In this document: piece by piece, positions 25,768 to 57,131 of the stretch
Layout: each line of letters opens with the position of its first letter
Numbering within the stretch: position 1 is the first letter of the stretch
IMG/VR virus record: IMGVR_UViG_3300043425_000307
Span: 1-59,891 of that record
From: a virus
Reading direction: 5' to 3' (one strand)
DNA: 59,891 nucleotides
Program-made: the position numbers and the translations under genes
The notes under the pieces: model-generated
What the model was told of the DNA's origin: nothing
Database searches by the model: none
What the model saw: the letters and a program-made list of their open reading frames with translations, nothing else

Positions 25768-25786
25768 AGAGATAATTATATGCTGT

Positions 25787-26221
25787 ATGTCATGGCTATT
25801 TGAATCCACTCTTGTGGAAACCCTTCCTGAGGATTGCGTGGGATTTGTGTATTTGATCACAAATACAGTATCTGGGCGCAAATACATAGGGAAAAAACTA
25901 GCCAAATTTTCAAAAACTACAGTAAAAACAGTAAAACTCAAAAACGGCACTAAAAAGAAAAAGAAGATCAGAAGCAAGATTGACAGCGATTGGCAAGAAT
26001 ATTATGGCTCAAACGACGAACTCAAAAAAGACATACAAACACTAGGCCCAGAAAAATTTACAAGAGAAATACTTTTTTACTGCAAATCAAAAGCTGAATG
26101 TTCATATATTGAAGCAAGAGAACAATTCCGACACCAAGTCTTAGAATCAGATGATTATTATAACGGACATATACAGGTCCGTGTCCATGGCTCTCACATT
26201 AAAAACAAACTAAGCAGTTAA
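25787..26221 (+). CDS. GIY-YIG nuclease-like protein
   Basis: A 144-aa protein with the two short GIY-YIG strands, GFVYLI (from residue 19) and RKYIGKK, a Lys-rich insert, then DWQEYYGSNDELKKDI, FTREILFYCKSK and YIEAREQ, the order seen in Seg-type and related phage GIY-YIG proteins. The Glu in YIEAREQ is the candidate metal ligand. Such proteins cut DNA and often act as free-standing homing endonucleases; a repair or non-mobile role is also possible. I chose the ATG at 25787 over the upstream TTG at 25739, which would overlap the radical-SAM gene by 29 nt. AAGAGA lies about 18 nt upstream, so the ribosome binding site is weak. A structured non-coding region follows at once. Confidence 0.75.
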   Translation: MSWLFESTLVETLPEDCVGFVYLITNTVSGRKYIGKKLAKFSKTTVKTVKLKNGTKKKKKIRSKIDSDWQEYYGSNDELKKDIQTLGPEKFTREILFYCKSKAECSYIEAREQFRHQVLESDDYYNGHIQVRVHGSHIKNKLSS

Positions 26222-26630: not shown

Positions 26631-27167
26631 TTATAATAGATTAAAGTCTTTAAGAACTTTAATATAATATGGTTCACCTGATGCTACTTGAGTTTGCCAA
26701 TCTGTACCTGCTGAGTGATCTGCTTGATCAGTGACATATTTGTAGCAATGAAATTTGATGTTGTTGAGTTCGCATGCTTTGGCTAGTGCATAGGCTTCCA
26801 TATCTACTACATCAGCTGGTATGTCCAAGATATTGTTGGTGACAAAGTTGTCTCCTGTGCTGCATATAGCACCTGTTGGGTCAGTTATAATAGCATGCTT
26901 GGTTTCAAACGGGGTTTGGCCTGGGTTGGGCATTAATGGCATACACAGCATGTCTCTTTGTACAAATTGAGTACAATGCACTAGTCCTGTCTGTGTGATT
27001 CCACCGGCTGTACCAAAATTGAATATTCGTTTTGGTTTGTATTCGTGTATGAGTTTTGCCACAGTCAGTGCTGCATTTACTTTGCCTACTCCGGTAAAGA
27101 ATACATTGGGATACTGCTGCAGACTTGGGGCTTCTTCCCGAATAGCCAATATGATAATATCTTGCAT
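26631..27167 (-). CDS. MTA/SAH nucleosidase-like enzyme (nucleoside phosphorylase fold)
   Basis: A 178-aa protein with the motifs of 5'-methylthioadenosine/S-adenosylhomocysteine nucleosidases: Glu11/Glu12 in IREEAP (the general-base position of E. coli MTAN), GVGKVNAA (26-33), FGTAGG (51-56), VVDMEAYALAKAC with Glu124 (ribose binding), and TDQAD with Asp147 (the catalytic Asp position). The family cleaves adenine from MTA, SAH and also 5'-deoxyadenosine, the by-product of radical-SAM enzymes. It is about 50 residues shorter than the E. coli enzyme (232 aa) but keeps all these residues. The ATG shares a base with the stop of the small upstream gene (TAATG). The link to the two radical-SAM genes 0.9-3.3 kb away is an inference. 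Confidence 0.82.
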   Translation of the reverse strand: MQDIIILAIREEAPSLQQYPNVFFTGVGKVNAALTVAKLIHEYKPKRIFNFGTAGGITQTGLVHCTQFVQRDMLCMPLMPNPGQTPFETKHAIITDPTGAICSTGDNFVTNNILDIPADVVDMEAYALAKACELNNIKFHCYKYVTDQADHSAGTDWQTQVASGEPYYIKVLKDFNLL

Positions 27168-44100: not shown

Positions 44101-44948
44101 CTACATTTACTTTAGCAGGAACCGGCACAACTGCTGGTACTATGGTAAGTATCAACGGTGTATTACAGATACCAAGTACTGCATACAGTGTTTCAGGGTC
44201 AACACTAGAATTCACTGAAGCCCCGGCATTAGGCGACGTTATTGATACAAGAATATTAACTACCACTTCAGTTGTTAACCAATTGGCCAGTGATAACGGA
44301 TTTAATCAATTTGTTGCCAATAATACTTCGTTGAGTTTCTATACTGGTAATGTAGCATTGGGCACTGTGGAAAACTGGAGAATGGACACTAACGGTGATC
44401 TTTATCCAGTCACAAAATCAAATATTGGTGCACCAGACTACCGTGTTGACTACTTGTATGCAAGCAACATCAATCTAAGCGGCGGTACAATCAGCGGTGT
44501 AGCATTAACAGGCGGCCCGATTGACGATACACCAATTGGTGGTAATGTAGGCAACACCGGTAATTTCACCACTCTAACTGCCAACGTATTCCAGGCCAAT
44601 ACCAGCGTCACAATCATTGCTGGCCTAATGACAATTGACAATACATCAAATACACAAGTATCGTCAGGTACAACTGGAAAGATTCAAAGCTTTGACAAAA
44701 CCGTACATAGAAGTGGCAAGTTCTTTGTGCAGGTCAGTGACGAAGACTCCGGCGAATATCAATCAGCAGAAGTTATTTGTGTACACAACGGTACAACTGC
44801 CACAATAGCAACATATGCTGTCACATTCACCGGTACAGCAAATCTAGCAACATTTAGTGCTAACATATCTGGTAATGACGTGAACTTGAACGCTACGCCA
44901 GTTGGCAATGTCAATGTTAAATCATTCGCAACGCTGATGAAGATATAA
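41142..44948 (+). CDS. Long modular tail fibre protein (1268 aa)
   Basis: The largest plus-strand protein here, 1268 aa, made almost entirely of Gly/Asn/Thr/Ala-rich beta repeats. The start has NLTVNGNTTTVNSIDTTVND. Internal units of the form TGAL/VIVxGGAGIxGxVYxG occur several times, for example about residues 385, 505 and 835, one followed by LTVQGTTTTLNTNTLDVEDK. About 920-1035 holds QRPSGQGYTDVDGMLRYNS then the VLQIPSTAYSVSG module. The C-terminus (about 1190-1268) is a distinct compact beta domain. No enzyme motif is seen. It is probably the shaft of a long fibre, with repeats that invite recombination with its neighbours. Confidence 0.75.
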   Translation: MAVTRIKNNQITDSTITYQKIAPGTLVGSVFNANLTLNSNVSITGNLTVNGNTTTVNSIDTTVNDPLIVFNAGYVGTPSYDVGFLVDRSLGSLGNYGSVNAALVWSETDGAFIALLTSETGATKGAVSQNFKANLIAGNITVANTAAIQTARITNLNVSGVYTASGNIVAASGVNATNYTTGALVVSNGGGAGITGDLWVQGPSTFAGNISAGNIQLSGNINVPVGGTFSNTGVFYGNAGGIGALYAGTSTYTALPTTVLQLSGNVDTYAQVNFQNLSSNCFASTDFVATADNGTDTEGYINMGINSSTFLDPTNFPSMGANDGYLIHHGVGSTGNLFIVNHTSGPANGIAFQVGDFGSGAVKGAFSSNGLIVYANTVSSSTSTGAVIVAGGAGITGTVYAGSIQNTPIGTETAASGYFTTFNATNASTGNIVISGGYISALTNAYITTGRTDNFSTANAVITGGYITGIANIATTEVATIGGNLVAASSQSSTSTTTGALVVVGGAGIGGNVNVGEDLYVAGNLTVQGTTTTLNTNTLDVEDKNITIAKGAVNSSAADGGGITLEGANATILYASTGDSWNFNKQVIAPTLNITSNVYLKPQTGGATVAIDPLIIGTIDNMSIGATSAANVVATNMRATTSLFATPTGTIWLRGGSGTNGINNIPIGAVTPAAGYFTFANVDTLRVNNTATITTLSTTTGQITNFSSGNVLISAGVIYNVDLQANNSSTANALITSSATTTGVVTNFSSGNVQITGGALSGLSGGTASNTANAGQSLRVSSGGLAVGGDSYFAASLGINENLRVDQVSVLNGNVLANSRVTTNYTAAAATASTGGALVIPGTGGAAVGGNLYVGQGTVINGSQSIHDTIIRGVNDRSLLYAVSDGTYDQVTIGGNLVAANVSQGAKLTVSSNDSLIVPVGTSAQRPSGQGYTDVDGMLRYNSTTGVLEYYGNSQWNNAGSAFTVITTRVFELASGSPYGNVDGVNTTFTLAGTGTTAGTMVSINGVLQIPSTAYSVSGSTLEFTEAPALGDVIDTRILTTTSVVNQLASDNGFNQFVANNTSLSFYTGNVALGTVENWRMDTNGDLYPVTKSNIGAPDYRVDYLYASNINLSGGTISGVALTGGPIDDTPIGGNVGNTGNFTTLTANVFQANTSVTIIAGLMTIDNTSNTQVSSGTTGKIQSFDKTVHRSGKFFVQVSDEDSGEYQSAEVICVHNGTTATIATYAVTFTGTANLATFSANISGNDVNLNATPVGNVNVKSFATLMKI

Positions 44949-44978
44949 TAAAAATAATACATAGGGGAACATGGAACC

Positions 44979-46028
44979 ATGGCAAATAAAAATTTTATAG
45001 TACATAATGGTCTTGAAGTTGGTGGTGTTAAAATATTCGCAGCCAACAGCGACATTATTACTACGGGTAATTTAACTAGCACGAACTCGGCAAGTATTCA
45101 GCAAATTGCAGTGACAAAATATGTAATGCAATTGCCTGACAATCTAGGAGCACCTGCTTGGTATAAGTTAGGCACATTTAGTGTTAACAGTGGTGCTGGT
45201 GCGGGCGAAGCACTTGAGATTATTATCACAGCAGGTGCAGGTTTTGCTGGCGAAAGTGATAGTAAAGATTTTCTTGTAGTCAGATTCTTGTCAGGCGGCT
45301 CTCCTAATATAGAAAGTAGATTCTATAGTCTAGGACATAAGCAATCTATAACAGACATGAAAGTAAAGTCTGTATCAGGAGTAGGTACGGGCACAAGTTG
45401 GGACGTATACGTAAGGGTGGCAGCAGATGTTGGTAAAGGGTTTGCTGAGGTACGCACCACTACAGAAGCAAAATTTACCTGGATTAACACAGTAGACAGT
45501 GATCCAGGTTCAGCAGCAGCAAATTTAGTAGTTGCATCGGACAAGTTAATTACTGCCAGTAGTAATGTGGTAGTTCAAAGCGGTAATTTGTATGTAGGTG
45601 GAAACATTTATCAGCAAGGTCAATTGGTTTCTACATCGTCTGGTAATGGTATGCTAACAGCCACACTAACTGGTGGTGGCACAGTTGGTCCATTTAATTT
45701 ACCATACACACCCGCTGACGCAGACCAAGTATCTGTTTGGTGGAACGGTATCTATCAACCAAAAGATACATATACTATTTCTGGCAATCAAATTACGTTT
45801 TCTGAAGCCATTCCTACCGGCACCAGGGCAGAGGTCAAGATATTAGCCGGCGCCGGCGCACAATTATTAGGAACACTAGGGGACATTAATTTTACCACAT
45901 CTCCTACAAACGGACAATTCTTACAATATAACTCCGCTCAAGGTAAATGGGTAGCTGCTACATCGTCATCTGAAGCGTCAGTGACTGAGACTGCAATTAA
46001 GTATGCGGTAGTTTTTGGCGGACTTTAA
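44979..46028 (+). CDS. Fibre-associated virion protein (349 aa)
   Basis: A 349-aa protein. Residues 1-45 start with FIVHNGLEVGGVKIFAANS, a fibre N-terminal pattern. About 50-185 is a beta-sandwich-like domain (YKLGTFSVNSGAG, EALEIIITAGAGF, SRFYSLGHKQSIT) that resembles the compact C-terminal domain of the preceding gene. About 225-290 is the shared GPFNLPYTP...WWNGIYQPKDTYTISG module. The end contains FLQYNSAQGKWVAAT. AGGGGAAC lies before the ATG at 44979. No further function can be read. Confidence 0.65.
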   Translation: MANKNFIVHNGLEVGGVKIFAANSDIITTGNLTSTNSASIQQIAVTKYVMQLPDNLGAPAWYKLGTFSVNSGAGAGEALEIIITAGAGFAGESDSKDFLVVRFLSGGSPNIESRFYSLGHKQSITDMKVKSVSGVGTGTSWDVYVRVAADVGKGFAEVRTTTEAKFTWINTVDSDPGSAAANLVVASDKLITASSNVVVQSGNLYVGGNIYQQGQLVSTSSGNGMLTATLTGGGTVGPFNLPYTPADADQVSVWWNGIYQPKDTYTISGNQITFSEAIPTGTRAEVKILAGAGAQLLGTLGDINFTTSPTNGQFLQYNSAQGKWVAATSSSEASVTETAIKYAVVFGGL

Positions 46029-46032
46029 ATTT

Positions 46033-46040
46033 AATAAATA
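46033..46040 (+). promoter_or_regulatory. T4-type late promoter for the 859-aa virion gene
   Basis: AATAAATA on the plus strand, 27 nt before the ATG at 46068, with AGGAAAAGG as ribosome site between them. Confidence 0.55.
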
Positions 46041-46067
46041 TAACATAGGAAAAGGATTTTTGAACAT

Positions 46068-48647
46068 ATGGCAAAGAAAACTTACACCAGCGGGTATCAA
46101 TTTACTCCAGGTACTTCGGGCAATACCGTTGTAACACTACCAGAAAAAGCTACACCAGAACAAATACTGTTAATCATTCACGTACCGAGTAAAACTACAC
46201 TGTACTCGTTTAACGATTCTACATTTAACAATGTGGTTTTTAGTTATGTACAGCGAAGCTATTCGGTAGCAGGAAACACTGTTTCGGGATCAACCGCAAT
46301 TGCAATGACCGGTGGTCAATACAGTGCATTAAAATACAACAACGGCGGCGTGGGACAAGGTTGGAGAATTTCTGGCACAGGCATGCCTTTGCAGGGCAAT
46401 GTTGTGGATTACACTGATGGTGTTAGCACAATTTTCCTAGACGTACCAGCTACAGCCACTGGAACCAATGTAAGTTTGACTTACACTGACGCTAGTTATG
46501 TGACTAGATTAAGTAATATTCCTGTTGATACATCAGCATACAGTGCTGATGATAAATTATTGATTATCACCGATGCGGAACCTGCTCCATTGGTTTCGTT
46601 TAGAGATTTCTTGGTAGATCCAGTTGGCAAATTAAGAGTGTCAACTCCACAGTCGTTAATTGACACAGACTTTGAATACGGACCTCAACCAACCAAATGG
46701 CAAACCCTATCATTGATCAACAATCAATTTGCCAGTTATGGGCGCAACACAGATGCAACATTGACTGCAAACGTTGCAACCATGCAAGGAAACGGTACAT
46801 CAATTGTTTCAGTGACCACGGCTACAGCACACGGACTTACAGACGGGCAACCAATTCAGGTGGTTGGTACTACAGACGAACAGGCAAACGGTCAATTCTT
46901 GGTATCAAATACAGGGGCAACGTCGTTTAGATACACAGGATTAGGCACTGTCACTGCAGGATCAATATTACAGAACGGAGTGGCAATTATACCAGGTGCA
47001 TTCTTCACTGGTGCAAATATTGCAATTACAGCAGTAAAAACTTTTGGTAATACTACAGTACAAGTTATCTCTCAGACTGCTCACGGTCTAGAAGTCAATA
47101 ACACAATTTCTGTAGTTAATTTTGCTACCGCAGCAGTAAACGGAGCACACACAATTGCTACACAATCTAACAGTAGAGCATTTGAATATACAATCACCAG
47201 CTCGCCAACTGCCGGTTCATCGGCAGCAGGTAATGTGTATGTAAGGCCACAAGGTATTGCTTATGCTCAGCCACAAGATGGTGGCATTGTAATGACTACC
47301 AATGATACACAACCTAATGCACGTATTATTAGACAGAGTCGTAAGTATTTCCGCTACCAATCAGGTAAAGGCGTTCAGGTGTCGTTCGCTGTTGCGTTCA
47401 ATAACCCAGCACAGCCTACTAGCAGTATTGCTAACCGTGCCGGTGTATTTGATGATCAGAACGGAGCATTTTTTGAGTGGGATGGTGGTACACTTTGGGC
47501 AGTAAGACGTAGTTCAGTTAGACAAGGAACAGGTACTGTCACTGTGACCAACGGTTCCGGATTGATATCAGGTTCGGGTACGCAATTCCAGACTGAATTC
47601 TCGGTTGGTAGCCGAGTGGTTATCAAAGGTCAAAGCTACAAAGTGGCACAAATTAACAGCGACACCAGCATGGAAGTGGTACCTGCTTATCGTGCAGATC
47701 CTACCATCACAACTTTGTCTGGTGTACGAATCAGCGTCACAGTAGATGCACGTATTCCGCAATCAGGATTCAACATTGACAAAGCAGATGGAACTGGTTT
47801 ATCTGGCTTCCAACTAGACATCAACAAGATCCTGATGTGGTACATTGACTATGCATGGTACGGCGCTGGTACAATTCGTTTTGGTGTCAAAGATCAAGAC
47901 GGTGAAATAACGTACTTACATAAATTTGTACACGGCAACAACAAGATTGAAGCTTATTTTAGAGCAGGTAATTTGCCCATTAGATACGAAGTTGTTAACG
48001 TGGGTACACCTTCATACGCTCCGACCCTGTTCCATTGGGGTACATCATTGATAATGGATGGTAGGTTTGATGAAGATAGAGGTTATACATTCTCTAGAGC
48101 AGGCACACTTAATAGTGTTAACACCGGCAATCCGTATTGCTTGTTAAACATCAGACTGGCTCCAACTGCTGATAACGGTATTGCAGCCGGATATGGTGTT
48201 CGCGATCTTACAAACCGCATGCAGCTATGGCCACTAGGTTGCGACGTAGCTTCAACCGACTCGGTTATTGTCAGCGTCATTTTAAATGGTACATTGAGCA
48301 GTCCGAGTCCAAATTGGCAGAATGTGGGAGGTAATAGCCTAACACAATATGATGATGCTGCTACTGTAGTGACCGGCGGAGAAGTAGTGTTCCAAGCATA
48401 CACACAACCAGCACCGGCTCGTCAAACCTATTTTAACTACTTTGGTCAACCAATCACAACTGGTGTTAACTTTGGTGTCACAAGTTTTGACCTAAGCAAG
48501 ATTAAAGAATTAAACAATGGTATTTTGGGAGGATTTGAAACATATCCTAACGGCCCAGATACATTGAGTATTGTGGTGCAACCGTTAAACGCCAACGTTG
48601 CGTACACTGCTAGAGCAAGTTTGCGTTGGCAAGAAAACCAGGCATAA
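46068..48647 (+). CDS. Large virion structural protein (859 aa)
   Basis: An 859-aa protein unlike the Gly-Asn repeat fibres. It is richer in aromatic residues and has apparently globular domains: NTVVTLPEKATPEQILLIIH near the start; two ~85-residue units near 245 and 325, each with a 'TTVQVISQTAHGLEVNN' or 'VSVTTATAHGLTDGQ' core; VSFAVAFNNPAQP near 445; and a central GTIRFGVKDQDGEITYLHKF then IEAYFRAGNLPIRYEVVN (about 605-650). The two 'AHGL' units are an internal duplication of a small beta domain. It is probably a tail or fibre-base protein; the family is not identified with certainty. It has its own late promoter. Confidence 0.65.
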   Translation: MAKKTYTSGYQFTPGTSGNTVVTLPEKATPEQILLIIHVPSKTTLYSFNDSTFNNVVFSYVQRSYSVAGNTVSGSTAIAMTGGQYSALKYNNGGVGQGWRISGTGMPLQGNVVDYTDGVSTIFLDVPATATGTNVSLTYTDASYVTRLSNIPVDTSAYSADDKLLIITDAEPAPLVSFRDFLVDPVGKLRVSTPQSLIDTDFEYGPQPTKWQTLSLINNQFASYGRNTDATLTANVATMQGNGTSIVSVTTATAHGLTDGQPIQVVGTTDEQANGQFLVSNTGATSFRYTGLGTVTAGSILQNGVAIIPGAFFTGANIAITAVKTFGNTTVQVISQTAHGLEVNNTISVVNFATAAVNGAHTIATQSNSRAFEYTITSSPTAGSSAAGNVYVRPQGIAYAQPQDGGIVMTTNDTQPNARIIRQSRKYFRYQSGKGVQVSFAVAFNNPAQPTSSIANRAGVFDDQNGAFFEWDGGTLWAVRRSSVRQGTGTVTVTNGSGLISGSGTQFQTEFSVGSRVVIKGQSYKVAQINSDTSMEVVPAYRADPTITTLSGVRISVTVDARIPQSGFNIDKADGTGLSGFQLDINKILMWYIDYAWYGAGTIRFGVKDQDGEITYLHKFVHGNNKIEAYFRAGNLPIRYEVVNVGTPSYAPTLFHWGTSLIMDGRFDEDRGYTFSRAGTLNSVNTGNPYCLLNIRLAPTADNGIAAGYGVRDLTNRMQLWPLGCDVASTDSVIVSVILNGTLSSPSPNWQNVGGNSLTQYDDAATVVTGGEVVFQAYTQPAPARQTYFNYFGQPITTGVNFGVTSFDLSKIKELNNGILGGFETYPNGPDTLSIVVQPLNANVAYTARASLRWQENQA

Positions 48648-48662
48648 AAAGGAAAAGAAATT

Positions 48663-49181
48663 ATGGCATTACAAAGAATAGAAACAACTGGGGGCGGAAA
48701 TCCTATTAGATTTAATGGGAATGTACAACCCCAGGCAAATGCAAACGTATATTTAGGAAATTTAACTTTTAGGTTTGCTACTATCTATGGTGTGTCGCAC
48801 AATGCCTTGTACGCTGACTTGGCTGAAATGTATACAGCTGATCAGCTGTATGGTCCTGGTACTGTTGTACAGTTTGGTGGAACAGAAGAAATTACACAAG
48901 CCAGCCCCGGTACAACACGAGTGGCTGGCGTAGTATCTACTAATCCTGCTTACTTAATGAACGATAGTTTAACAGGTAGTCATATCACCGCGGTCGCACT
49001 TATTGGGCGAGTCCCTTGCCAAGTATTAGGCCCAGTAGAAAAAGGCGATATGCTTGTTTCTGCAGGCGGTGGCTTTGCTAGTGCTTGTAGTAGCCCAACA
49101 GTTGGGTCAGTTATCGGAAAAGCTTTAGAAAACTTTAACGGTGAATCTGGTACAATTGAAGTAGTAGTAGGGCGTTTATAA
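48663..49181 (+). CDS. Stand-alone copy of the fibre C-terminal 'YADLAE' domain
   Basis: A 172-aa protein whose residues ~50-172 match the C-terminus of the 674-aa fibre two genes on: both have the order YADLAE(M/I)Y, Y(G/A)xGTVVxFGG, AGV(V/I)STNPAY(L/I)MN, GRVPCQVLGPV.KGD and a final IEVVVGR. The same domain ends many phage fibre proteins and may help fold, trimerise or cap the fibre. Here it is expressed alone with only a short N-terminal piece (ANVYLGNLTFRFATIYG). It may be an adaptor or a remnant of a longer fibre whose upstream part was lost. The last gene before a terminator. Confidence 0.7.
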   Translation: MALQRIETTGGGNPIRFNGNVQPQANANVYLGNLTFRFATIYGVSHNALYADLAEMYTADQLYGPGTVVQFGGTEEITQASPGTTRVAGVVSTNPAYLMNDSLTGSHITAVALIGRVPCQVLGPVEKGDMLVSAGGGFASACSSPTVGSVIGKALENFNGESGTIEVVVGRL

Positions 49182-49204
49182 AAACACTACAAACTAAAAA
49201 ATAT

Positions 49205-49223
49205 AAGGGCCGCAAGGCCCTTT
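49205..49223 (+). terminator. Rho-independent terminator inside the fibre cluster
   Basis: AAGGGCC and GGCCCTT pair across a GCAA loop, followed by a short TATTTA tail. The hairpin core AGGGCCGCAAGGCCCT is the same as in the gp23 terminator at 36619. The T-run is weaker, so read-through may occur. Confidence 0.7.
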
Positions 49224-49230
49224 ATTTACG

Positions 49231-49238
49231 GCTAAATA
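49231..49238 (+). promoter_or_regulatory. Late promoter for the second fibre operon
   Basis: GCTAAATA directly after the terminator and 19 nt before the ATG at 49258. The same octamer occurs at 59874 on the minus strand before the gp14-like gene. Confidence 0.5.
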
Positions 49239-49257
49239 TTGCATAACGGATGAAACG

Positions 49258-51282
49258 ATGGCATTAACTAGACCAAAATACAGCAACATTGTTGACACTG
49301 ACTACAAAGCTAGCTGTAGAATTGTAACCACAACAAATATTACCTTAAGTGGTGGCGCACCAAACACATACGACGGCGTAAGTTTAGCAGCAGGTGACCG
49401 TATTTTGGTAGCAGGACAGAGCACAGCAAGTCAGAACGGTATTTACATAGTGCAAACGCTGGGTGCAGGAAGCAACGGAACTTGGGTCCGCAGTTTTGAC
49501 GCCAATTCTAGCGATCGAGTCACGCCTGGTTTAACTACCACAATCGAGGACGGAACTTATGTTGGAAAAGCCTGGCGCTTGACTACAGGCAATCCTATTA
49601 CGCTTGGTACCACTAATTTAACTTTTGTTGATTCTGCAGGTGCAGCAGGTGGTGTTGCAGGAGCCAATAGAAATGTTCAGTACAACAGTTCAGGCGCATT
49701 TGCTGGCGCAGCTGATTTTAACTATTACGCTGAAACTGGTAATGTTATTGCCACTGGAAACGTTATACTAGGTAATTCGACTACTAGTAATGTGGTTATT
49801 AATTCAATTACAGAATCTATTTCGTCAACTACAGGTGCTCTGGTTGTTAAAGGTGGAGCCGGCATAGTTGGAAATCTTTTTGTCACTGGAAACATATTTG
49901 CTTCGAATCTGCTGTCAATTGCATCGCATACATTAAATGTACAAGATCCTTTATTGTATTTAAATGCCAACGTTGCTTATCCGTACATATACGATATTGG
50001 ATTTTTTAGCCACTTCGTTGGCGGCAGCGCAAACGTTTATCAACATACCGGCCTTGTTCGAGATTACACTACAAATCAATGGAACCTGTTTAGTAATGTG
50101 ACTTCGGAGCCAGGTGCTACAATAAATTGGTCTGACCCAGGATTAGTATACGATCCACTAAGAATTGGATCGTTAACCATTGACAGCAATATTATACCAA
50201 GCAGCGGTAATGTAAGAGTGCAAGGTCACGTAATTCCAGATGCAAATGTCACCTATAGCTTGGGTTCAAGCAATCTAAGATGGAAGGATCTTTGGTTAAG
50301 CGGTAATACAATCTATCTTGGACCAGAGTCAATGAGTGTAGACTCGTCCGGTCGATGGTCTTTCACTAGCGGTGGTACTACAGTTAATTTAGGTTCAAAT
50401 GTAGAATTTAATCCTCCATCGGCCAATATCGCCGGAAACACAACTGTGGGTAGTCTTTATACAGGATCAGGGGTATTCTGGTCAGCAAACAACGAACCCT
50501 TTACTGGTATAAAATTTACAGCAGCAAGTACTGCACCTAGTTCGCCTAGACTTGGTGATTATTGGTACGACACTGATACAGACATTTTATTTTCTAGAAT
50601 ATCAGATGGAACAAGTAGTCTTTGGGTAGATACTGGTTCAGCCGCAGCAAACGTGGCCAATGTTTTAGTAGCCAACACCATAATAGTAAATCAGACTCTG
50701 ACAGCAGGAAATCTCGTAATCAACAGTAATGCAGCAATTACAAGAGGGTTAACAGCCAACACATTAAGCACTACAAGACTGCTTTCGGTCAATTCAGATG
50801 GGCAAACAATAGCCATTGCCAATGGTGGAACCAACGGCGTTGGTAATATTGGATCATCGGGTGCATCGTTTAATACAATTTTTGCTAGAGCAACGTCAGC
50901 ACAATATGCTGACTTGGCCGAGATTTATGAATCAGACAGCAACTACGCTGCTGGTACAGTTGTGGTATTTGGCGGAGCAAAAGAAATTACTATTTCTACC
51001 GTAGATCATGATTCAAGAATAGCTGGGGTGATTTCTACCAATCCGGCTTATATAATGAATTCAACTGCTAACGGGTTGCCAGTTGCACTTACAGGAAGAG
51101 TTCCGTGCCAAGTTCTTGGACCAGTGACCAAAGGCGATCTGTTGGTATCAAGTTCAACGTCAGGAGCAGCCGAACGATTAAATATTTTAAAGTATACTCC
51201 AGGTTGTGTAATAGGCAAGAGCCTTGAAGATATAAAGGACAACGAATTGAAAATAATTGAAGTTGTGGTAGGGAGATTTTAA
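49258..51282 (+). CDS. Tail fibre protein with C-terminal 'YADLAE' domain (674 aa)
   Basis: A 674-aa protein. The N-terminal ~130 residues form a distinct domain (CRIVTTTNITLSGG, GDRILVAGQSTASQNGIYIV, WRLTTGNPITLGTTNLTF) found in many phage fibres and likely to attach the fibre. Then come SSTTGALVVKGGAGIVGNLF (about 190), the NVTYSLGSSNLRWKDLWLSG unit (about 330-350), GDYWYDTDTDILFSR (about 440), and the C-terminal ~130 residues homologous to the 172-aa protein at 48663. It ends IIEVVVGRF. The stop overlaps the next ATG by one base (TAATG), so translation is coupled. A tail fibre role is well supported by composition and modules; the receptor is unknown. Confidence 0.75.
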   Translation: MALTRPKYSNIVDTDYKASCRIVTTTNITLSGGAPNTYDGVSLAAGDRILVAGQSTASQNGIYIVQTLGAGSNGTWVRSFDANSSDRVTPGLTTTIEDGTYVGKAWRLTTGNPITLGTTNLTFVDSAGAAGGVAGANRNVQYNSSGAFAGAADFNYYAETGNVIATGNVILGNSTTSNVVINSITESISSTTGALVVKGGAGIVGNLFVTGNIFASNLLSIASHTLNVQDPLLYLNANVAYPYIYDIGFFSHFVGGSANVYQHTGLVRDYTTNQWNLFSNVTSEPGATINWSDPGLVYDPLRIGSLTIDSNIIPSSGNVRVQGHVIPDANVTYSLGSSNLRWKDLWLSGNTIYLGPESMSVDSSGRWSFTSGGTTVNLGSNVEFNPPSANIAGNTTVGSLYTGSGVFWSANNEPFTGIKFTAASTAPSSPRLGDYWYDTDTDILFSRISDGTSSLWVDTGSAAANVANVLVANTIIVNQTLTAGNLVINSNAAITRGLTANTLSTTRLLSVNSDGQTIAIANGGTNGVGNIGSSGASFNTIFARATSAQYADLAEIYESDSNYAAGTVVVFGGAKEITISTVDHDSRIAGVISTNPAYIMNSTANGLPVALTGRVPCQVLGPVTKGDLLVSSSTSGAAERLNILKYTPGCVIGKSLEDIKDNELKIIEVVVGRF

Positions 51283-52127
51283 TGTCTTTTCCAACTAACC
51301 CAACAAACGGTCAACAGGCCATTGTAAACAATGTTGTTTACACCTATAACTCAACAAAAGACGCTTGGGTAAGAACATCTAATGCATCAGCTACCTTAAC
51401 TTTTGACAAATTGGTATTGACTAATTCTGGTAGTGATTCTTTAACAACATCCGGAGGGATAACCACCACTGGAAATATTTTTGCCGGTACAACAAACGGC
51501 AATGGTTATCGGATGTATGTTAATAACAACGGTGCTGGTACCACCGGCACAATGTATGTGTCTGCATCAGTGGGCAATTCTGGAAATGGTGTGGTAATTG
51601 ATTCAACTGCTAGATCAGTGTTTGACAATGCAGTACCAATGCTGCATTTAATTGCTAGAGATGGTAGCGTGGCACTATCAACTACAGTTCGCGGTAATAC
51701 TGTCATTGGAGCCACTACTGCTTCTACGTCAACAGACACAGGAGCATTGGTAGTTCGAGGTGGCGTGGGTATTGCTGGAGAAGTAATAGCAGCCGGAAAC
51801 ATAGTTGCTGCGTCCCCAATTCCGTCAACATCCACAACTACAGGTGCATTGGTTGTCGCTGGCGGTATAGGAGTAGCTGGAAATATTAACACTTCTGGAC
51901 TTATTAGTACTACTGGAAATATTAGCACCAGCGGAAATATCAGTACAACTAATAATCTTACAGCAGCAAGAGTAAACAATACTGGACAATTTTATTATAA
52001 CACAAGAACTATCTCAGCAAATGTGACAATTGCTGCCACAGAAAATGCTATGAGTGTTGGCCCAATGACAATAGCCGATGGAGTTGAAGTAGTAATTGCC
52101 GACGGCGGCGAATGGAGTATTGTATAA
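51282..52127 (+). CDS. Short fibre-type protein with tandem repeat units (281 aa)
   Basis: A 281-aa protein. The start, PTNPTNGQQAIVNNVVYTYN, resembles N-terminal caps of other phage fibres. The middle has two successive copies of the STSTxTGALVVxGGxGxAG unit (about 150-170 and 185-205). After it comes a run of NISTSGNISTTNN-like short repeats, then a compact end with VTIAATENAMSVGPMTIADG, a sequence ending seen on many phage virion proteins. It overlaps the upstream stop by one base and the next gene begins 1 nt after its own stop. It is probably a side-fibre or fibre-tip component. Confidence 0.7.
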   Translation: MSFPTNPTNGQQAIVNNVVYTYNSTKDAWVRTSNASATLTFDKLVLTNSGSDSLTTSGGITTTGNIFAGTTNGNGYRMYVNNNGAGTTGTMYVSASVGNSGNGVVIDSTARSVFDNAVPMLHLIARDGSVALSTTVRGNTVIGATTASTSTDTGALVVRGGVGIAGEVIAAGNIVAASPIPSTSTTTGALVVAGGIGVAGNINTSGLISTTGNISTSGNISTTNNLTAARVNNTGQFYYNTRTISANVTIAATENAMSVGPMTIADGVEVVIADGGEWSIV

Positions 52128-52128
52128 T

Positions 52129-52716
52129 ATGAGTAATCTAACAGTTAGCGGACTGTCAGGCACAGTGTCTAACAACAATCAAATTCTTGTGACCAATGGG
52201 CATACACTAATTAATCCTGGATCTATAATACAATGTAAAGTCACAAGGTACGACACACAAACTACATACACTACTGGTACTGGCTTAAATGGCGTGGAAT
52301 TGACAGACTTGCGAGTAAGTATCACACCAAAGCGAGCCAATAGTTTAATTGTGTGCCAGTTTCAAGTGCATGGCGAAGGCGCATCGGACCACAATTATAT
52401 ATTCAGAGTATTTAAAAACGGTACAGTGCCTGCAGGAACATATGCTGGTTATAACACAGCAGCCGGCGATAATCACTGGTCTGGTATTGCAATGGCATTG
52501 CCGTACGAAGGTGATTACAGCTCCACACCATTTACACAAAATTTTATGTATTATGATTTTCCTGGAGTCACTAGTGCCATTACTTACGCACCTGGAGTCA
52601 AGGTATCGGCGGCCACTAGTTATGTTTGGTATTTGAATAGAACAGTTAGCAGCACTGGCACTACTAATCAAGAAAACGGTGTAAGTGTAAGCATTGCTTG
52701 GGAAATAGCACAGTGA
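52129..52716 (+). CDS. Small tail protein, duplicated pair A, copy 1
   Basis: A 195-aa beta-rich protein with GSIIQCKVTRYDTQTTYTTG (about 30-49), LRVSITPKRANS, VFKNGTVPAG, LPYEGDYSSTPFT and the end ENGVSVSIAWEIAQ. The next gene encodes a clear paralogue with the same blocks in the same order. I chose the ATG at 52129, directly after the previous stop, over the TTG at 52096. The pattern (LRVSI.PKRANS...V.GE...N) is common in small phage virion proteins thought to sit at tail or fibre tips. Its stop overlaps the GTG of the paralogue. Confidence 0.65.
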   Translation: MSNLTVSGLSGTVSNNNQILVTNGHTLINPGSIIQCKVTRYDTQTTYTTGTGLNGVELTDLRVSITPKRANSLIVCQFQVHGEGASDHNYIFRVFKNGTVPAGTYAGYNTAAGDNHWSGIAMALPYEGDYSSTPFTQNFMYYDFPGVTSAITYAPGVKVSAATSYVWYLNRTVSSTGTTNQENGVSVSIAWEIAQ

Positions 52717-53294
52717 CCGTATTAACAGTAGGAAATATCAAAGCCTTATCTGGCAACACAATAGTCATGCCCGGCGGCCATTCTATAATAAGCCCTGGCT
52801 CAGTTATACAATGTGTAATCACGCGGTATGATGCGCCAACAACTTACACAACCGGAAATAGCTTAGGTGGTGTAGAAATGACAGATTTAAGAGTCAGCAT
52901 CAGACCAAAAAGATCTAATAGCATGATAATGTGTACATTTCAGGTATTTGGCGAAGGTGCTAGCACACACGATTATGTAATGACTATTTTTAAAAACGGT
53001 GCCGTCCCTGATGGTCCGTATGCTGGCTTTAATAATCAAGCCGGAAGACAATTCTGGTCAGGCTATGCCATGCCGCTGCCATACGAAACAGATTATAACA
53101 GCACACCATTCACATCAACCATGAGATACTTTGATTTTCCTAAAACAACAGATTTGATTACCTACGCCCCGGGAGTGCAGAATACAGCAGGAACTAGTTA
53201 TACCTGGTTCTTGAATCGAACAGCGGGCAGTCTTGGGACTACCAATTATGAAAATGGCTCAAGTATAAGTATGGCCTGGGAGATTGCACAATGA
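52713..53294 (+). CDS. Small tail protein, duplicated pair A, copy 2
   Basis: A 193-aa paralogue of the previous gene: GSVIQCVITRYDAPTTYTTG, LRVSIRPKRSNS, IFKNGAVPDG, LPYETDYNSTPFT and ENGSSISMAWEIAQ align throughout. I chose the GTG at 52713, which overlaps the upstream stop as GTGA, over a TTG at 52698. The overlap matches the ATGA and TAATG overlaps of its neighbours and indicates coupled translation. The copies differ most in loops between conserved blocks, as expected when duplicated tail proteins diverge in binding properties; that reading is inferred. Confidence 0.65.
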   Translation: MTVLTVGNIKALSGNTIVMPGGHSIISPGSVIQCVITRYDAPTTYTTGNSLGGVEMTDLRVSIRPKRSNSMIMCTFQVFGEGASTHDYVMTIFKNGAVPDGPYAGFNNQAGRQFWSGYAMPLPYETDYNSTPFTSTMRYFDFPKTTDLITYAPGVQNTAGTSYTWFLNRTAGSLGTTNYENGSSISMAWEIAQ

Positions 53295-53848
53295 CATTAC
53301 GAGTAGATCAAATTACAGCATCAGCTGGAACTGGCAATATTGTTATTCCTGCTAACACTAGATTTGTAGGGACAGATCCGGGCACGTTCGACGGACCTCC
53401 AAGAGTTGGCGGCATAGTTCAAATGGTCACAGCCAATGCCATGCCAATCTCACATTTGAGTGTAGCCTCCACTGGAGAGGTGGCCGCACCCCTAACTGCA
53501 AGTATCACACCCAGATATGCCACTAGTAAGATTCGAGTAGAGTCGTGGTCCACTATGCAATATGGAGCATCCGGGAACCCAATGTGTTTACTATTATATA
53601 GGGATATTGGCGGCGCCGGGTACAATGTGTTGACACCCCTAACTGGCGCAGCGTCTAGATACGCATACGGGTGGAGTTATATACAATCCAATTGGAATTC
53701 AGCAGTCCATACATATCTAGATTCGCCAAACACAACATCTACAGTGACCTATAGGGTGAATTACAGAAATTGGGCAGGAACAACAACTAATTATTTCACA
53801 CACCAGTATATGGAATACGGCTGGACATTAACGGAGATATACGCCTAA
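53291..53848 (+). CDS. Small tail protein, duplicated pair B, copy 1
   Basis: A 185-aa protein starting MTLRVDQITASAGTGNIVIP, with PPRVGGIVQMV, ASITPRYATSKIRVE, a Tyr/Trp-rich middle (YAYGWSYIQSNW) and the end HQYMEYGWTLTEIYA. The 'ITPRYATSKI' block resembles 'ITPKRANSLI' of pair A, so both pairs may share one ancestral fold. The start overlaps the upstream stop as ATGA and the stop overlaps the next start as TAATG. It is probably a tail-tip protein. Confidence 0.65.
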   Translation: MTLRVDQITASAGTGNIVIPANTRFVGTDPGTFDGPPRVGGIVQMVTANAMPISHLSVASTGEVAAPLTASITPRYATSKIRVESWSTMQYGASGNPMCLLLYRDIGGAGYNVLTPLTGAASRYAYGWSYIQSNWNSAVHTYLDSPNTTSTVTYRVNYRNWAGTTTNYFTHQYMEYGWTLTEIYA

Positions 53849-54411
53849 TGCCCGGCATTCTTAGAACAGACAGTATCGCATCGTATAGTCAAAGTGGCAC
53901 TATAGTCATACCTACAGGCAACAAAATGCTTGGCACTAGCGCCAATGTGTTTATGTCACCGCCTAGGGTGGGAGAAATTGTTCAACAGGTCAATTCTAAT
54001 GCTTCTACTACTTCTGCATTGACTATTACATCATTGACCGAAACTGATTTAGGATTAAAAATTTGGATCACACCAGAATACGCCTCAAGTAAAATTATAG
54101 TCGAATGGTATTCGCAAATGATATACGGAGCTGCTAATGCAATCATTTTGCAGCTATATAGAAGTAATAATGGAGGATCTAGTTTTGTTAATTTAACTCC
54201 ATTTACTAATGCAGGATCAAGATATCAATACGGATGGAATTACAATTCAAACGGATGGGCACAGCAAAAAGTCAGATTCGTTGACACGCCTGGTGTCGCG
54301 GGCAATATTGTGTACAAATTAAGCTACAGAAATATATCAAGTACTGCTACCAACTACTTAGTAGATCAATACATGGAATACGGGTGGCATTTGACGGAGA
54401 TCGCACAATGA
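53848..54411 (+). CDS. Small tail protein, duplicated pair B, copy 2
   Basis: A 187-aa paralogue of the previous gene: RTDSIASYSQSGTIVIP, PPRVGEIVQQV, WITPEYASSKIIVEW, GSRYQYGWNYNSNGW and DQYMEYGWHLTEIAQ align block by block. The N-terminal 'RVDQI/RTDSI...G.IVIP' signature also resembles the start of pair C ('IRVDDIKNSAG'). Translation is coupled on both sides by 1- and 4-nt overlaps. Function as for its partner; divergence is mostly in the middle third. Confidence 0.65.
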   Translation: MPGILRTDSIASYSQSGTIVIPTGNKMLGTSANVFMSPPRVGEIVQQVNSNASTTSALTITSLTETDLGLKIWITPEYASSKIIVEWYSQMIYGAANAIILQLYRSNNGGSSFVNLTPFTNAGSRYQYGWNYNSNGWAQQKVRFVDTPGVAGNIVYKLSYRNISSTATNYLVDQYMEYGWHLTEIAQ

Positions 54412-55016
54412 GTGCCAAGATTGACACCATCAAAAATTCTTCAGGTCAAGATCTACTGGTTAACGGCTATCCTAGACGACCAGGTAGGATTATTGAATAC
54501 TTGTCTGGTGTGTGCGACGGATCTTCGGTCACTGTAGGTTCGGGAACATACAAATTTCAAAGCGTGTTCACGCAGCAATTGCTCACTGCAACAACTACAA
54601 CAACATACGCAGTAATAAGAGGGTCAGTAATAGATTATGTACCGCCGCCGGGAACAACCGCCGTGACTTACAGATTTCATTTTACAACATACTGGGATAC
54701 CGACCATGCAATCAATCATTACAAATTTTTTATTGACAACAATGAAGTAGTATATGCTAGACACAATAGATCTGGCAGATATATAGAAGATAGATATACT
54801 TTTAGCTGGACAATAGACATTGGCGGAGCTGACAATACTAATACTGGCAGGCAAGCAACTTGGTCTACTTCAAAAAAATTATACATGATGGTAAGAAATT
54901 ACGGATCCAGTGACGATAGCAATTTACATGGAACCTATTATTGGGACGGTGGCGGCGGAGCAGGAACTGCCGCCAATTTTAGCATGCCCCAGTTAGACAT
55001 TATTGCAGCAGCGTAA
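54408..55016 (+). CDS. Small tail protein, duplicated pair C, copy 1
   Basis: A 202-aa protein: KIDTIKNSSGQDLLVNGYPR, PGRIIEYLSGVCDGSSVTVG, a beta-rich middle (VIDYVPPPGTTAVTYRFHF), HYKFFIDNNEVVYARHNRSG and an end with YYWDGGGGAG. The ATG at 54408 overlaps the upstream stop as ATGA; a GTG at 54384 is less likely. The 'VVYARHxRSG' and 'YWDGGG' blocks recur in the next gene. It is probably a virion tip protein by context. Confidence 0.65.
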   Translation: MSAKIDTIKNSSGQDLLVNGYPRRPGRIIEYLSGVCDGSSVTVGSGTYKFQSVFTQQLLTATTTTTYAVIRGSVIDYVPPPGTTAVTYRFHFTTYWDTDHAINHYKFFIDNNEVVYARHNRSGRYIEDRYTFSWTIDIGGADNTNTGRQATWSTSKKLYMMVRNYGSSDDSNLHGTYYWDGGGGAGTAANFSMPQLDIIAAA

Positions 55017-55035
55017 ATAGAATAAAGGAATCAAA

Positions 55036-55629
55036 ATGGCATCATCAATAAGGGTAGACGATATTAAAAACTCAGCTGGTACCGCTGTGTTAGTCAACGG
55101 CTATCCTCGTCAGCCGGGACAAATAATTGAATATTTAAGCAGTCCATGCGACGGATCTTCTGTCACTGTGGGATCCGGTACGTACACATTTCAAAATGTC
55201 ACTGGAGTACAAACTGGGACCGATGCTTATGCTGACATCACTGGGTCAAGTATTGCATACACACCTCCTGCTGGCACCACTAGAGTTAAATATATCTTTG
55301 ATTATAACTGGTATTGGCCGTCAGGAACCCATTGTATTAGCCATCATAAATTTTTCATTGATGCAGCAGAAGTAGTTTATGCAAGACACAGTAGATCAGG
55401 ATTTTATCCTGAAGGTCGATTTGCTTTTGAATGGACTATTGCTATAGGAGGAAATGCAGATGCCAATACAGGTAGACAAGCAACATGGTCGTCTGCTAAA
55501 ACACTAAAAATGCAATTTAGACGGTATGGATCAGGAAACCCAATGAATGTACACGGAACCACATACTGGGATGGTGGCGGCAGTGTGCAACTAGGTATCC
55601 CGGTGTTAACAATAATGGCAATAGCATGA
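55036..55629 (+). CDS. Small tail protein, duplicated pair C, copy 2
   Basis: A 197-aa paralogue of the previous gene: RVDDIKNSAGTAVLVNGYPR, PGQIIEYLSSPCDGSSVTVG, YTPPAGTTRVKYIFDY, HHKFFIDAAEVVYARHSRSG and TTYWDGGGSVQLG align in order. Unlike the other members it has a 19-nt upstream gap with AAAGGA as ribosome site, and a GTAAATA stretch at the end of the preceding gene, so it may be expressed partly on its own. A role as variable tail-tip protein is inferred. Confidence 0.65.
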   Translation: MASSIRVDDIKNSAGTAVLVNGYPRQPGQIIEYLSSPCDGSSVTVGSGTYTFQNVTGVQTGTDAYADITGSSIAYTPPAGTTRVKYIFDYNWYWPSGTHCISHHKFFIDAAEVVYARHSRSGFYPEGRFAFEWTIAIGGNADANTGRQATWSSAKTLKMQFRRYGSGNPMNVHGTTYWDGGGSVQLGIPVLTIMAIA

Positions 55630-55641
55630 GAGGTTATAAAA

Positions 55642-55956
55642 ATGGCAACAAGAAGAATTTTTGATGTACCGGCAGCACTAGTTAGCTTGTATCCCGCAGC
55701 ACAGTGGGTGCATCGCGGCGACGGTTATGCGGGTATTGAATGGAAAGACGAAACGATACCGTGCCCAACACAGGAAGAAGTTGAAGCAGAAATAGCTAGA
55801 CTACAAGCCGAATACGATGCTCTAGAGTATCAGCGATTGCGTAGGGAAGAATACCCCAGTTTTGCTGATCAATTTGACACCTTGTATCATGGAGGATACG
55901 ACGCATGGCGAGCAGAAATTCAAGCAGTAAAAGATAAGTATCCTAAACCGGAATAA
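55642..55956 (+). CDS. Tail assembly chaperone-like protein (104 aa)
   Basis: A 104-aa protein. The first 45 residues are compact (FDVPAALVSLYPAAQWVHRG). Then comes a helix rich in Glu (EEVEAEIARLQAEYDALEYQ) and a C-terminal motif, RREEYPSFADQFDTLYHGG then AEIQAVKDKYPKPE. The 'EYPxxxDQxDxLxHGG...KxKYPKP' ending is common in small phage proteins encoded just after fibre genes and annotated as fibre-assembly or chaperone-like. That role is an inference from position and motif. Confidence 0.7.
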   Translation: MATRRIFDVPAALVSLYPAAQWVHRGDGYAGIEWKDETIPCPTQEEVEAEIARLQAEYDALEYQRLRREEYPSFADQFDTLYHGGYDAWRAEIQAVKDKYPKPE

Positions 55957-55960
55957 GATT

Positions 55961-56716
55961 ATGCAAACAATAAAAAAATTATATCGTAAAGATTATCGCG
56001 GCGAGGACGTTATTACAAATAGAGTTTATCGAAACTCAAAATGGAATCCCACAGTAGAATTCGTATCAAATAGCTTTAACGTCGAACCTACCAGCACAAA
56101 CGCAGTAGTTTTAGGAAATGGGCCTACTAGATTAGAATTTGACTGCTCAAGATTTTTAGAGTATCGCGTTCCACCTAATACCTGGAGAGCAAAAGAAAAC
56201 AAAGTTAATTTTTTAACTTACGGTTGTAATGCATTATTTAGAGATTATAGACCAGACTTCTTGATTGCCACTGGAGACACACTGCTAACAGAAATAGCCA
56301 ATAGCGGATACTGCGATAGTAGAGTGGTGTATGCAAACAATAGCCCGTTGGTAAACTTTCCAGGTAAATTTCATCTGATACCACAAAACCCTCAATTCAA
56401 CAGCGGAGCAATTGCTGCGTATCTTGCTGCATTTGATGGACATAAAAAAGTGTACATGCTTGGATTTGATGGCAATGATACTCCTAACTACAATTATAAT
56501 GTATATAATGGAACGACAGGATACCCGTCGGAAAATTCTCCAATTACAGAAGATTACTGGGTATTGAGTTTAAAAGAAGTGATGTCTGCCTATAACGAAA
56601 CAGAATTTGTTAGAGTGGCACCTACTGCCAGTTTCAGAACTCCTGAGCTTTGGAAATACTGTTTAAACTATAGACAAATTGATTTTAGACAGTTTGCATC
56701 TGAGGTTGGGCTATAA
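55961..56716 (+). CDS. Glycosyltransferase-like protein (DUF115/GT42-type motifs)
   Basis: A 251-aa protein. After a basic N-terminus it has AVVLGNGPTRLEFDCSRF (about 48-65), then FLTYGCNALFRDYRPDFLI and ATGDTLLTEI, then FNSGAIAAYLAAFDG and KKVYMLGFDGND (about 165-175). The order 'GNGPS/T...D', 'xxCN..F', 'SG..A...A', 'vyLxGxD' is the pattern of CMP-sialic-acid-using GT42 enzymes and of the related DUF115 (MptE-like) superfamily. It could glycosylate virion fibres or host surface sugars, or be a pterin-type transferase. It is the last plus-strand gene and its 3' end overlaps the Nudix gene by 32 nt. Superfamily membership is by motif; the reaction is unknown. Confidence 0.6.
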   Translation: MQTIKKLYRKDYRGEDVITNRVYRNSKWNPTVEFVSNSFNVEPTSTNAVVLGNGPTRLEFDCSRFLEYRVPPNTWRAKENKVNFLTYGCNALFRDYRPDFLIATGDTLLTEIANSGYCDSRVVYANNSPLVNFPGKFHLIPQNPQFNSGAIAAYLAAFDGHKKVYMLGFDGNDTPNYNYNVYNGTTGYPSENSPITEDYWVLSLKEVMSAYNETEFVRVAPTASFRTPELWKYCLNYRQIDFRQFASEVGL

Positions 56717-57131
56717 CTTTTTCCACAGTTTTAATTTTGTCTATTATTGATTTAAAATTAAAAGTACGCCATACTCCTGGATGCAGGGGTTTGGGATGAT
56801 CGTCTAATTCAGTCCACGCATACCCACGATGTTCGTTGTTTAATCTAGGAATAAATTCTTCGTTAACCACAATAAGATAAGTGTGGTATTCAAAATTGTT
56901 AGTATCGCTGGTAAACTTTTCAAGCGGGATCACTTTACCAATCTGAATTGATCCAATTTCCTCTTGAATCTCTCTGTGCAAGGCTTCGATTGCGGTTTCG
57001 CCAAGCTCAACTCCGCCGCCAACTAGTCCCCACGAACCTGCATGACGTTTTTGATTTCTTAGTAAAAAAAGATATCTTTGAGTTGATTTGCTATAAACTA
57101 AAGCACCACAACCTATATGATTAGACTCCAC
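56685..57131 (-). CDS. Nudix hydrolase
   Basis: A 148-aa protein with a full Nudix box, GGVELGETAIEALHREIQEE followed by IG (the G-x5-E-x7-REUxEExG signature), and an N-terminal RHAGSWGLVGG that precedes it in most members. Nudix enzymes cleave nucleoside diphosphates linked to another group: oxidised nucleotides, NADH, ADP-ribose, dinucleoside polyphosphates, or sugar nucleotides. T4 has one, NudE, of similar size; substrate cannot be told here. The start is a GTG at 57131 overlapping the upstream gp15-like gene by 19 nt. Its 3' end overlaps the convergent glycosyltransferase-like gene by 32 nt. Confidence 0.88.
   Translation of the reverse strand: MESNHIGCGALVYSKSTQRYLFLLRNQKRHAGSWGLVGGGVELGETAIEALHREIQEEIGSIQIGKVIPLEKFTSDTNNFEYHTYLIVVNEEFIPRLNNEHRGYAWTELDDHPKPLHPGVWRTFNFKSIIDKIKTVEKVIAQPQMQTV

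Follow-up and report, generated by a model that had tools for sequence, protein, structure and literature searches.

What six small genes are doing side by side at the end of a run of tail-fibre genes, and how they came to be there, is the question posed by positions 52129–55629 of a T4-like phage sequence (the window, meaning the whole 59,891 nt stretch analysed herein). The initial annotation read these consecutive plus-strand genes of 185–202 codons, referred to here as head genes, as three paralogous pairs, which is borne out by global identities of 62 % for A/A′, 46 % for B/B′ and 60 % for C/C′ (z of 59, 33 and 50 against shuffles, respectively), all far above chance. The short overlaps of 1–4 nt described for most junctions are likewise present, with four of the five displaying an overlap of 1 or 4 nt and the exception being the gap between C and C′. 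A junction motif occurs in three copies within the window against an expectation of 0.13 (pattern allowing one mismatch), and, judging from the sequence, the six genes are most likely translationally coupled and co-transcribed (Table 1).

Table 1. Coordinates of the head genes, their junction motifs and neighbouring genes in the window
Feature	Position	Strand	Size	Remarks
Two upstream fibre-like genes	49258..52127	+	674 and 281 aa	Probably same operon
Head gene A	52129..52716	+	195 aa	J-type (A/B family); predicted TNF/C1q-like jelly roll
Head gene A′	52713..53294	+	193 aa	GTG start; 4 nt GTGA overlap with A
Head gene B	53291..53848	+	185 aa	4 nt ATGA overlap with A′
Head gene B′	53848..54411	+	187 aa	1 nt TAATG overlap with B
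Head gene C	54408..55016	+	202 aa	4 nt ATGA overlap with B′; putative distant C subfamily
Head gene C′	55036..55629	+	197 aa	19 nt gap after C
d1	55642..55956	+	104 aa	Partner gene; probable fibre-assembly chaperone family
Junction motif A/A′	52702..52716	+		GARATNGCACARTGA; end of A (EIAQ-stop) / start of A′
Junction motif A′/B	53280..53294	+		
Junction motif B′/C	54397..54411	+		

The A and B pairs constitute one sequence family, with A′ and B linked by BLASTP (E-value 1.5e-4) and the A pair aligning to the B pair with z of 4.6–8.3. Pairwise alignment of C to A/B gives no link (z < 3); however, the C profile aligns to that of A/B (hhalign 87.6 %, E-value 3.5e-6) and also matches P-SSP7_038 (E-value 1.2e-6 within a set of 34 proteins), placing C as a distant relative of the A/B family via weak profile matches and predicted fold. 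The connection originally drawn between all three pairs is thus direct for A and B, and for C runs through profiles and structure. Of the two signatures offered in its favour, the N-terminal R.DxI-type motif occurs in both types (24/36 A/B-type and 11/20 C-type heads, compared with 12/459 other ORFs), whilst the ITPxxAxSKI-type motif, present in 31 of the 36 A/B-type heads, is absent from all 20 of the C type, which carry YxPPxGTxxVxY in its place. PHROG_6942 (tail fiber C-terminus) is matched by A, A′, B and B′ (E-values of 3.9e-18, 3.5e-16, 1.6e-9 and 6.3e-9, respectively), with no PHROG match for C or C′; Pfam contains no relevant family for the six heads or for 53 relatives, and NCBIfam no match for A, B or C. 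The weak matches that the A/B profile gives to chains of flavivirus E, pgp3 and galectin are attributed to chance or to similarity of fold only. Searching phage records with the region by megablast gave no match, nor did tblastn of C against phages, and a scan of genome contigs with C returned no relative and therefore no prophage or host lead.

The suggestion that the ends of the pairs are conserved and their middles differ did not hold. Identity by quarters is.48/.67/.61/.67 for A/A′,.43/.47/.45/.45 for B/B′ and.69/.45/.67/.48 for C/C′ (circular-shift p of 0.87, 0.75 and 0.26, respectively), and loops are about as conserved as strands, with no concentration of variation in the former. Gene conversion as a source of conserved ends was rejected, as pair identity is even and codons differ throughout, the same codon being used at only 32–46 % of the residues identical between pair members.

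Confident AlphaFold2 monomer models of B (pLDDT 89.4) and C (pLDDT 91.1) display the same predicted fold, a TNF/C1q-type jelly-roll β sandwich. Matches to PDB entries reach a Z of 13.4 for B and 10.0 for C, the best for B being the TNF-like lectins PLTL of Photorhabdus (Z 13.4) and the N-terminal domain of Burkholderia BC2L-C (Z 12.0), which are also among the best for C (Z 9.8 and 9.6, respectively), together with BclA (Z 8.5) and C1q (Z 7.5). The same TNF/C1q families, TNF-like lectins above all, lead both lists, in keeping with the single fold foreseen in the initial annotation rather than with unrelated ones, and models and sequence together support one fold common to all three pairs. The likeness to PLTL and BC2L-C is a match of fold only, at 8–17 % identity, and these are bacterial lectins rather than phage parts. 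The B model also matches Bd2734 (Z 11.2), which, like Bd2439, is a Bdellovibrio MAT protein where a TNF-like jelly roll tips a phage-fibre-like protein, one of these fibres having GlcNAc bound at its tip (PMC10769870); a predatory bacterium carries these tips as fusions to long fibres, whereas those of the window are separate tandem genes. ExsFA, like BclA, is among the structural matches, and the TNF/C1q fold also has non-receptor roles, for example in spore coats.

With regard to genomic setting, the 281 aa upstream gene matches phrog_5342 (tail fiber; E-value 5.5e-7), and the head set probably forms the end of a tail-fibre operon that includes the upstream genes. A J-type domain forms the C-terminal end of the 658 aa orf22, of which PDB 9efk contains 18 chains (E-value 1.1e-27), and 9efk is not among the best 50 VIA rows; longer fibre-like ORFs also end in J or C domains, and homologues in S-WAM2 and P-SSP7 carry a tail fibre protein annotation. 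The partner gene d1 comes after the head run in most long-run loci, and also in S-WAM2, P-SSP7 and Lederberg, with some related loci possessing heads without an adjoining d1. It probably belongs to a family with tail-assembly-chaperone members, PF16778 (Phage_tail_APC) being matched by 4 of 28 aligned d1 relatives (best E-value 9.3e-11) and the window's own d1 matching no Pfam family at an E-value of 0.01. Gene position, tail-fibre homologues and matches to TNF-like lectins all support the tail-tip role proposed at the outset, with receptor binding by the heads as its putative function.

The array is probably best explained as six trimeric TNF/C1q-type tail-tip heads for host-surface glycans, made separately and diversified by duplication, slot replacement and cassette exchange. 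Each head would begin with a short N-terminal stalk or docking peptide and continue into the jelly roll, which we infer to trimerise, as in the homotrimers of solved TNF/C1q-type members. Co-transcription and translational coupling would lead to the six being produced together, d1, as a chaperone-like protein, would help them to fold, and they would be mounted on fibres from the genes just upstream, binding host surface glycans or proteins and perhaps differing in their targets. The set would evolve through ancient duplications, through single slots being refilled from other paralogue lineages, and through blocks passing horizontally between phages. Paralogy, conserved synteny with fibre genes and d1, and block exchange at the sequence level are what the analysis shows, together with the shared fold predicted from models. 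A further proposal, that each virion carries six receptor specificities side by side and that aquatic phages trade tips as slots or as C–C′–chaperone blocks, is more tentative and at present doubtful; if true, host range would evolve by reshuffling pooled separate tips, and not by mutating one fibre.

Individual parts of this arrangement are already known from marine phages, where C1q-type genes are located in hypervariable host-recognition islands (PMC3909814); no description of a run of six exchangeable copies was found in the literature searched. Arrays of 2–5 heads, usually followed by d1, occur in S-WAM2, P-SSP7, Lederberg and many viral contigs, and the window shares their tandem architecture of at least two adjacent heads, then a d1 homologue, near tail-fibre genes. 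In the Prochlorococcus podovirus P-SSP7, a J-type run with 1–4 nt overlaps (PSSP7_037, 038 and 039) lies directly after the gp17 tail fibre with a d1 homologue next, the system also including PSSP7_040 and a further tail fibre protein, PSSP7_041; unlike the window, this podovirus has a run of three and no full C-type member, with 038 matching the C profile weakly. The T4-like Synechococcus myovirus S-WAM2 (Kyanoviridae) harbours tandem J-type heads (gp161–gp159) after a 9.6 kb fibre gene, and then d1 (gp158), but again only three heads and no C-type pair. Tandem J-type genes with 1–4 nt overlaps also occur in Pelagibacter phage Lederberg (three, genes 71–69, small downstream gene 68) and in Methylophilales phage Melnitz (two, genes 194–195, small downstream gene 196, which matches the d1 profile only at an E-value of 0.009), both runs being shorter than the six heads of the window. 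Myocyanophage Pam3 possesses a tail fibre with a TNF-like domain (gp24) and a chaperone (gp25) just downstream, differing in its single fibre gene, helical stalk and glycine-rich tip (PMC9608196).

Runs of six, the longest found, are those of the window and three close relatives, and identical sets, against which the initial annotation would have weighed its proposal, are confined to the closest relatives, where the head order is always JJJJCC; beyond them, runs comprise 1–5 heads. Such numbers bear on whether the heads are indeed made separately, as pair members, or several of the six, might instead form heterotrimers in the manner of the A, B and C chains of C1q, yielding one or a few composite heads. 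C1q is itself among the structural matches, adjacency and translational coupling would favour equal amounts of pair members, and A/A′ and C/C′ have been kept together through long divergence. Runs of 1, 2, 3, 4 and 5 are, however, hard to accommodate with fixed heterotrimers, and the bacterial TNF-like lectins matched are homotrimers, leaving heteromeric heads unlikely.

Repeated duplication, as first suggested, appears to be part of the history of the array, alongside old shared splits, slot replacement and horizontal movement of blocks. Relatives share the old splits between A and A′ and between C and C′, only the B/B′ duplication may be specific to the lineage of the window (support 89), and the first slot of relatives holds another paralogue lineage. 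Synonymous sites within pairs look saturated, and the copies are therefore old. All six heads have been kept coding under purifying selection (dN/dS 0.03–0.17), and there is no sign of positive selection in dN/dS values for which dS is often saturated. This, and identity that is even across strands and loops, would suit duplication without specialisation, with paralogues of one function drifting; yet copies of such age all remain intact, and orthologous slots are kept across relatives whilst the slots differ among themselves, rendering mere redundancy quite improbable. Least probable is a capsid or whisker decoration, in which jelly rolls on the head or neck aid loose surface attachment, for although the tail location is deduced and BclA and ExsFA exemplify non-receptor surface roles of TNF/C1q folds, the genes stand at the end of a fibre operon, match a tail-fibre PHROG, encode a domain that is the C-terminus of fibre proteins and have a partner from a tail-assembly-chaperone family.

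In marine phages, genes for TNF/C1q-type proteins rank among the most variable, and their products are suspected receptor binders, yet each is usually catalogued as an isolated hypothetical gene. Viewed as coupled runs, up to six heads long and sharing a partner gene, many 'hypothetical proteins' of the well-known phages P-SSP7, S-WAM2, Lederberg and Melnitz would unite into one testable module, which the existence of cultured relatives makes experimentally tractable.

Inversion or diversity-generating switching was considered and rejected, as repeats within 51200–56800 are weak (inverted arms 73–88 % complementary, and direct repeats stemming from paralogy itself) and nothing indicates an invertase system, nor was any reverse transcriptase noticed among the larger ORFs of the window. 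Blocks such as C–C′–d1 appear to move horizontally between phages, on evidence from metagenomic contigs, in which mis-assembly is possible. Two contigs, L010 and L018, display 98–100 % DNA identity across nearly all of C–C′–d1, with a break just beyond it to about 57 %, the level of their backbones. Being near-identical on diverged backbones, the block therefore makes the array look like an exchangeable cassette, and provides a concrete unit for studying host change in aquatic phages. Between L010 and the window, DNA identity is about 85 % in the C–C′–d1 block and about 58 % outside it, rising at the B′/C junction motif.

The window, a virus record of 59,891 bases, represents part of a T4-like phage genome, and its major capsid protein displays at most 70% identity to capsid proteins of T4-type and jumbo phages. 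Six small head genes (A to C′) end a series of fibre-like genes and are followed by d1, d2 and then opposite-strand tail genes, including one for a gp3-like tail sheath stabilizer. Four of the five junctions in the array overlap, by 4, 4, 1 and 4 nt in gene order, with a gap of 19 nt from C to C′. Three junctions carry GARATNGCACARTGA, encoding a conserved C-terminal EIAQ plus stop and including the next start codon (0.13 occurrences expected for the pattern); such sequences also occur at gene junctions of relatives, and could provide homology for module exchange.

Coordinates of the head array, its neighbours and other genes
Feature	Position	Strand	Description
A	52129-52716	+	head gene
A′	52713-53294	+	head gene, GTG start
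B	53291-53848	+	head gene
B′	53848-54411	+	head gene
C	54408-55016	+	head gene
C′	55036-55629	+	head gene
d1	55642-55956		104 aa, directly after array
d2	55961-56716	+	251 aa, after d1
GARATNGCACARTGA	52702-52716, 53280-53294, 54397-54411		15-base sequence, three array junctions
Fibre-like series	41142-52127		ended by array
Radical SAM pair	23855-25767	+	two adjacent proteins
GIY-YIG gene	25739-26221		SegE-like homing endonuclease
Phosphorylase-like gene	26631-27167	-	178 aa
Peptidase_G2-like gene	48663-49181	+	172 aa

Identities within the adjacent pairs are 62% (A/A′), 46% (B/B′) and 60% (C/C′). The conserved ends described in the initial annotation are absent: identity is even from quarter to quarter within each pair, and conservation is about the same in strands as in loops. 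As pair members use the same codon at just 32-46% of identical residues, the copies are old and free of recent conversion, and pairwise dN/dS for the six heads (0.04-0.17 where computable) indicates that all have been kept.

The A and B pairs (J-type heads) are linked in sequence via A′/B (E 1.5e-4, z 8.3), and pairwise comparison gives no link from either to the C-type heads. AlphaFold2 models of B (pLDDT 89.4, first 40 residues weak) and C (pLDDT 91.1) are confident, and the same solved structures head both lists of matches: the TNF-like lectin PLTL (Z 13.4, rmsd 2.4 over 121 residues for B; Z 9.8, rmsd 2.8 over 123 residues for C), BC2L-C (Z 12.0 and 9.6), the Bdellovibrio fibre tip Bd2734 (Z 11.2 and 8.7), the chlamydial Pgp3 C-terminal domain, BclA and C1q. 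Predicted viral proteins matching both models include those of S-WAM2 and ACG-2014j. Alignment of all J-type against all C-type sequences by hhalign (87.6%, E 3.5e-6, 49 columns) centres on ITPxxxxSKIxV in J and YTPPxGTTxVxY in C, and the C profile, run against only 34 proteins, reaches P-SSP7_038 (E 1.2e-6) and 039 (E 1.9e-5). Given these common structure matches and profile links, the earlier proposal of one tail-tip fold stands as a prediction. An N-terminal L/I-R-V-D-x-I-type motif is common to all six (24/36 J heads, 11/20 C heads and 12/459 other ORFs), and is a candidate docking or stalk peptide.

Most likely, each gene encodes a small head that forms trimers and adopts the TNF/C1q jelly-roll fold. 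Coupled translation would yield the heads together, d1 would assist their folding, and the common N-terminal region would attach them to fibres, where the mounted heads would bind host-surface molecules; trimerisation, location and binding are here inferred from homologues. A, A′, B and B′ match the C-terminus of PHROG_6942 'tail fiber', and a J-type domain is the C-terminus of orf22 (658 residues, PDB 9efk; E 1.1e-27), which has 18 chains in that entry, the number expected of six trimeric fibres. Marine phages carry C1q-type genes within their variable recognition islands (PMC3909814), cryoconite phages have C1q-type, putatively receptor-binding genes amongst their variable genes (PMC7468147), and Bdellovibrio fibres carry TNF-like tips, one solved with bound GlcNAc (PMC10769870). 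Host range did not differ among four Melnitz variants that vary in a different tail-assembly region (PMC9004378); tail-gene variation thus need not alter host.

Synteny of d1 is evident at the sequence level, its homologues following the head run in most long-run loci; amongst the isolates, S-WAM2, P-SSP7 and Lederberg share this order. Of 28 aligned d1 relatives, 4 match the Pfam tail assembly chaperone PF16778 (best E 9.3e-11), and the window's own copy does not. Downstream fibre chaperones are well documented, e.g. Pam3 gp25 (PMC9608196) and V22 gp27 (PMC7289586).

At the sequence level, relatives point to exchange of these genes. Contig L008 has a backbone near that of the window (gp3 89%, d2 92% protein identity) and a partly diverged array (B′ 70%, C 70%). 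The backbone of L010 is distant (51-62%) and its array end close (C 86%, C′ 93%, d1 96%, d1 dS 0.38), with DNA identity to the window rising from ~0.6 to 0.85 near the B′/C junction and dropping after d1. L010 and L018 are 98-100% identical in DNA across nearly all of the B′ end, C, C′ and d1 (90% in a single stretch of 100 bases), falling to ~57% some 50 bases into d2. For such a near-identical block on two diverged backbones, recent horizontal exchange is the best explanation. One mis-assembled contig could also generate the shared block, but the contrast between the window and L010 stands independently of L018. With protein identity of 92% to L008 and 51-58% to L010 and L007, d2 may have been exchanged too. 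It matches phrog_30607 (E 1e-18) and, weakly, a PHROG named alpha-2,3-sialyltransferase (E 0.004); a putative sugar-modifying enzyme beside putative glycan-binding heads is a point of interest.

Amongst viral contigs, several cut at one end, adjacent heads run JJJJCC (L006, L007, L008), JJJCC (L009, L011, L012, L040-L042), JJJC (L017), JJC (L038) and CJJJ (L046), the remainder being shorter. S-WAM2 and Lederberg carry JJJ, Melnitz JJ, and P-SSP7 JJJ, d1 and one weaker J; six is thus the longest run in the contigs and isolates examined. L006 proteins are 100% identical to those of the window (A′ 99% in one comparison, owing to the start codon), and L006 represents it in head trees from a short search. 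A′ groups with the lone J of L023 rather than A (support 88), so the A/A′ split predates the window lineage; C′ groups with C of L038 (99), whilst B and B′ pair up as sister branches (89), which may reflect a duplication specific to this lineage. In L009, L012, L017 and L038, a member of another J lineage occupies the first slot (96). The 'pairs' therefore differ in age, and slots are replaced. L045:5899-11433 holds two head-plus-partner sets: after a C head, one J head is paired with a d1 copy, and a further d1 follows three longer J heads encoded by ORFs of 263-353 aa. L041 likewise has two d1 copies.

Earlier work or deposited records already show the fold, its role in the tails of marine phages and, in sequenced phages, short runs of tandem heads. 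The literature searched, mostly outside subscription journals, holds no description of such runs as a single coupled module that shares a partner gene, of a run of six heads, of the C subfamily or of an exchangeable C-C′-d1 block.

Elsewhere in this T4-like phage, two radical SAM proteins (PF04055, E 2e-7 and 9e-7) adjoin the GIY-YIG gene (PF19835, E 8e-34), and a nucleoside phosphorylase/nucleosidase-like protein (PF01048, E 2e-17) lies within the structural gene region. The 172-aa protein weakly matches the Peptidase_G2 autoproteolytic domain (E 1.4e-4), and the 674-aa gene after it has a similar YADLAE...-type C-terminal sequence.
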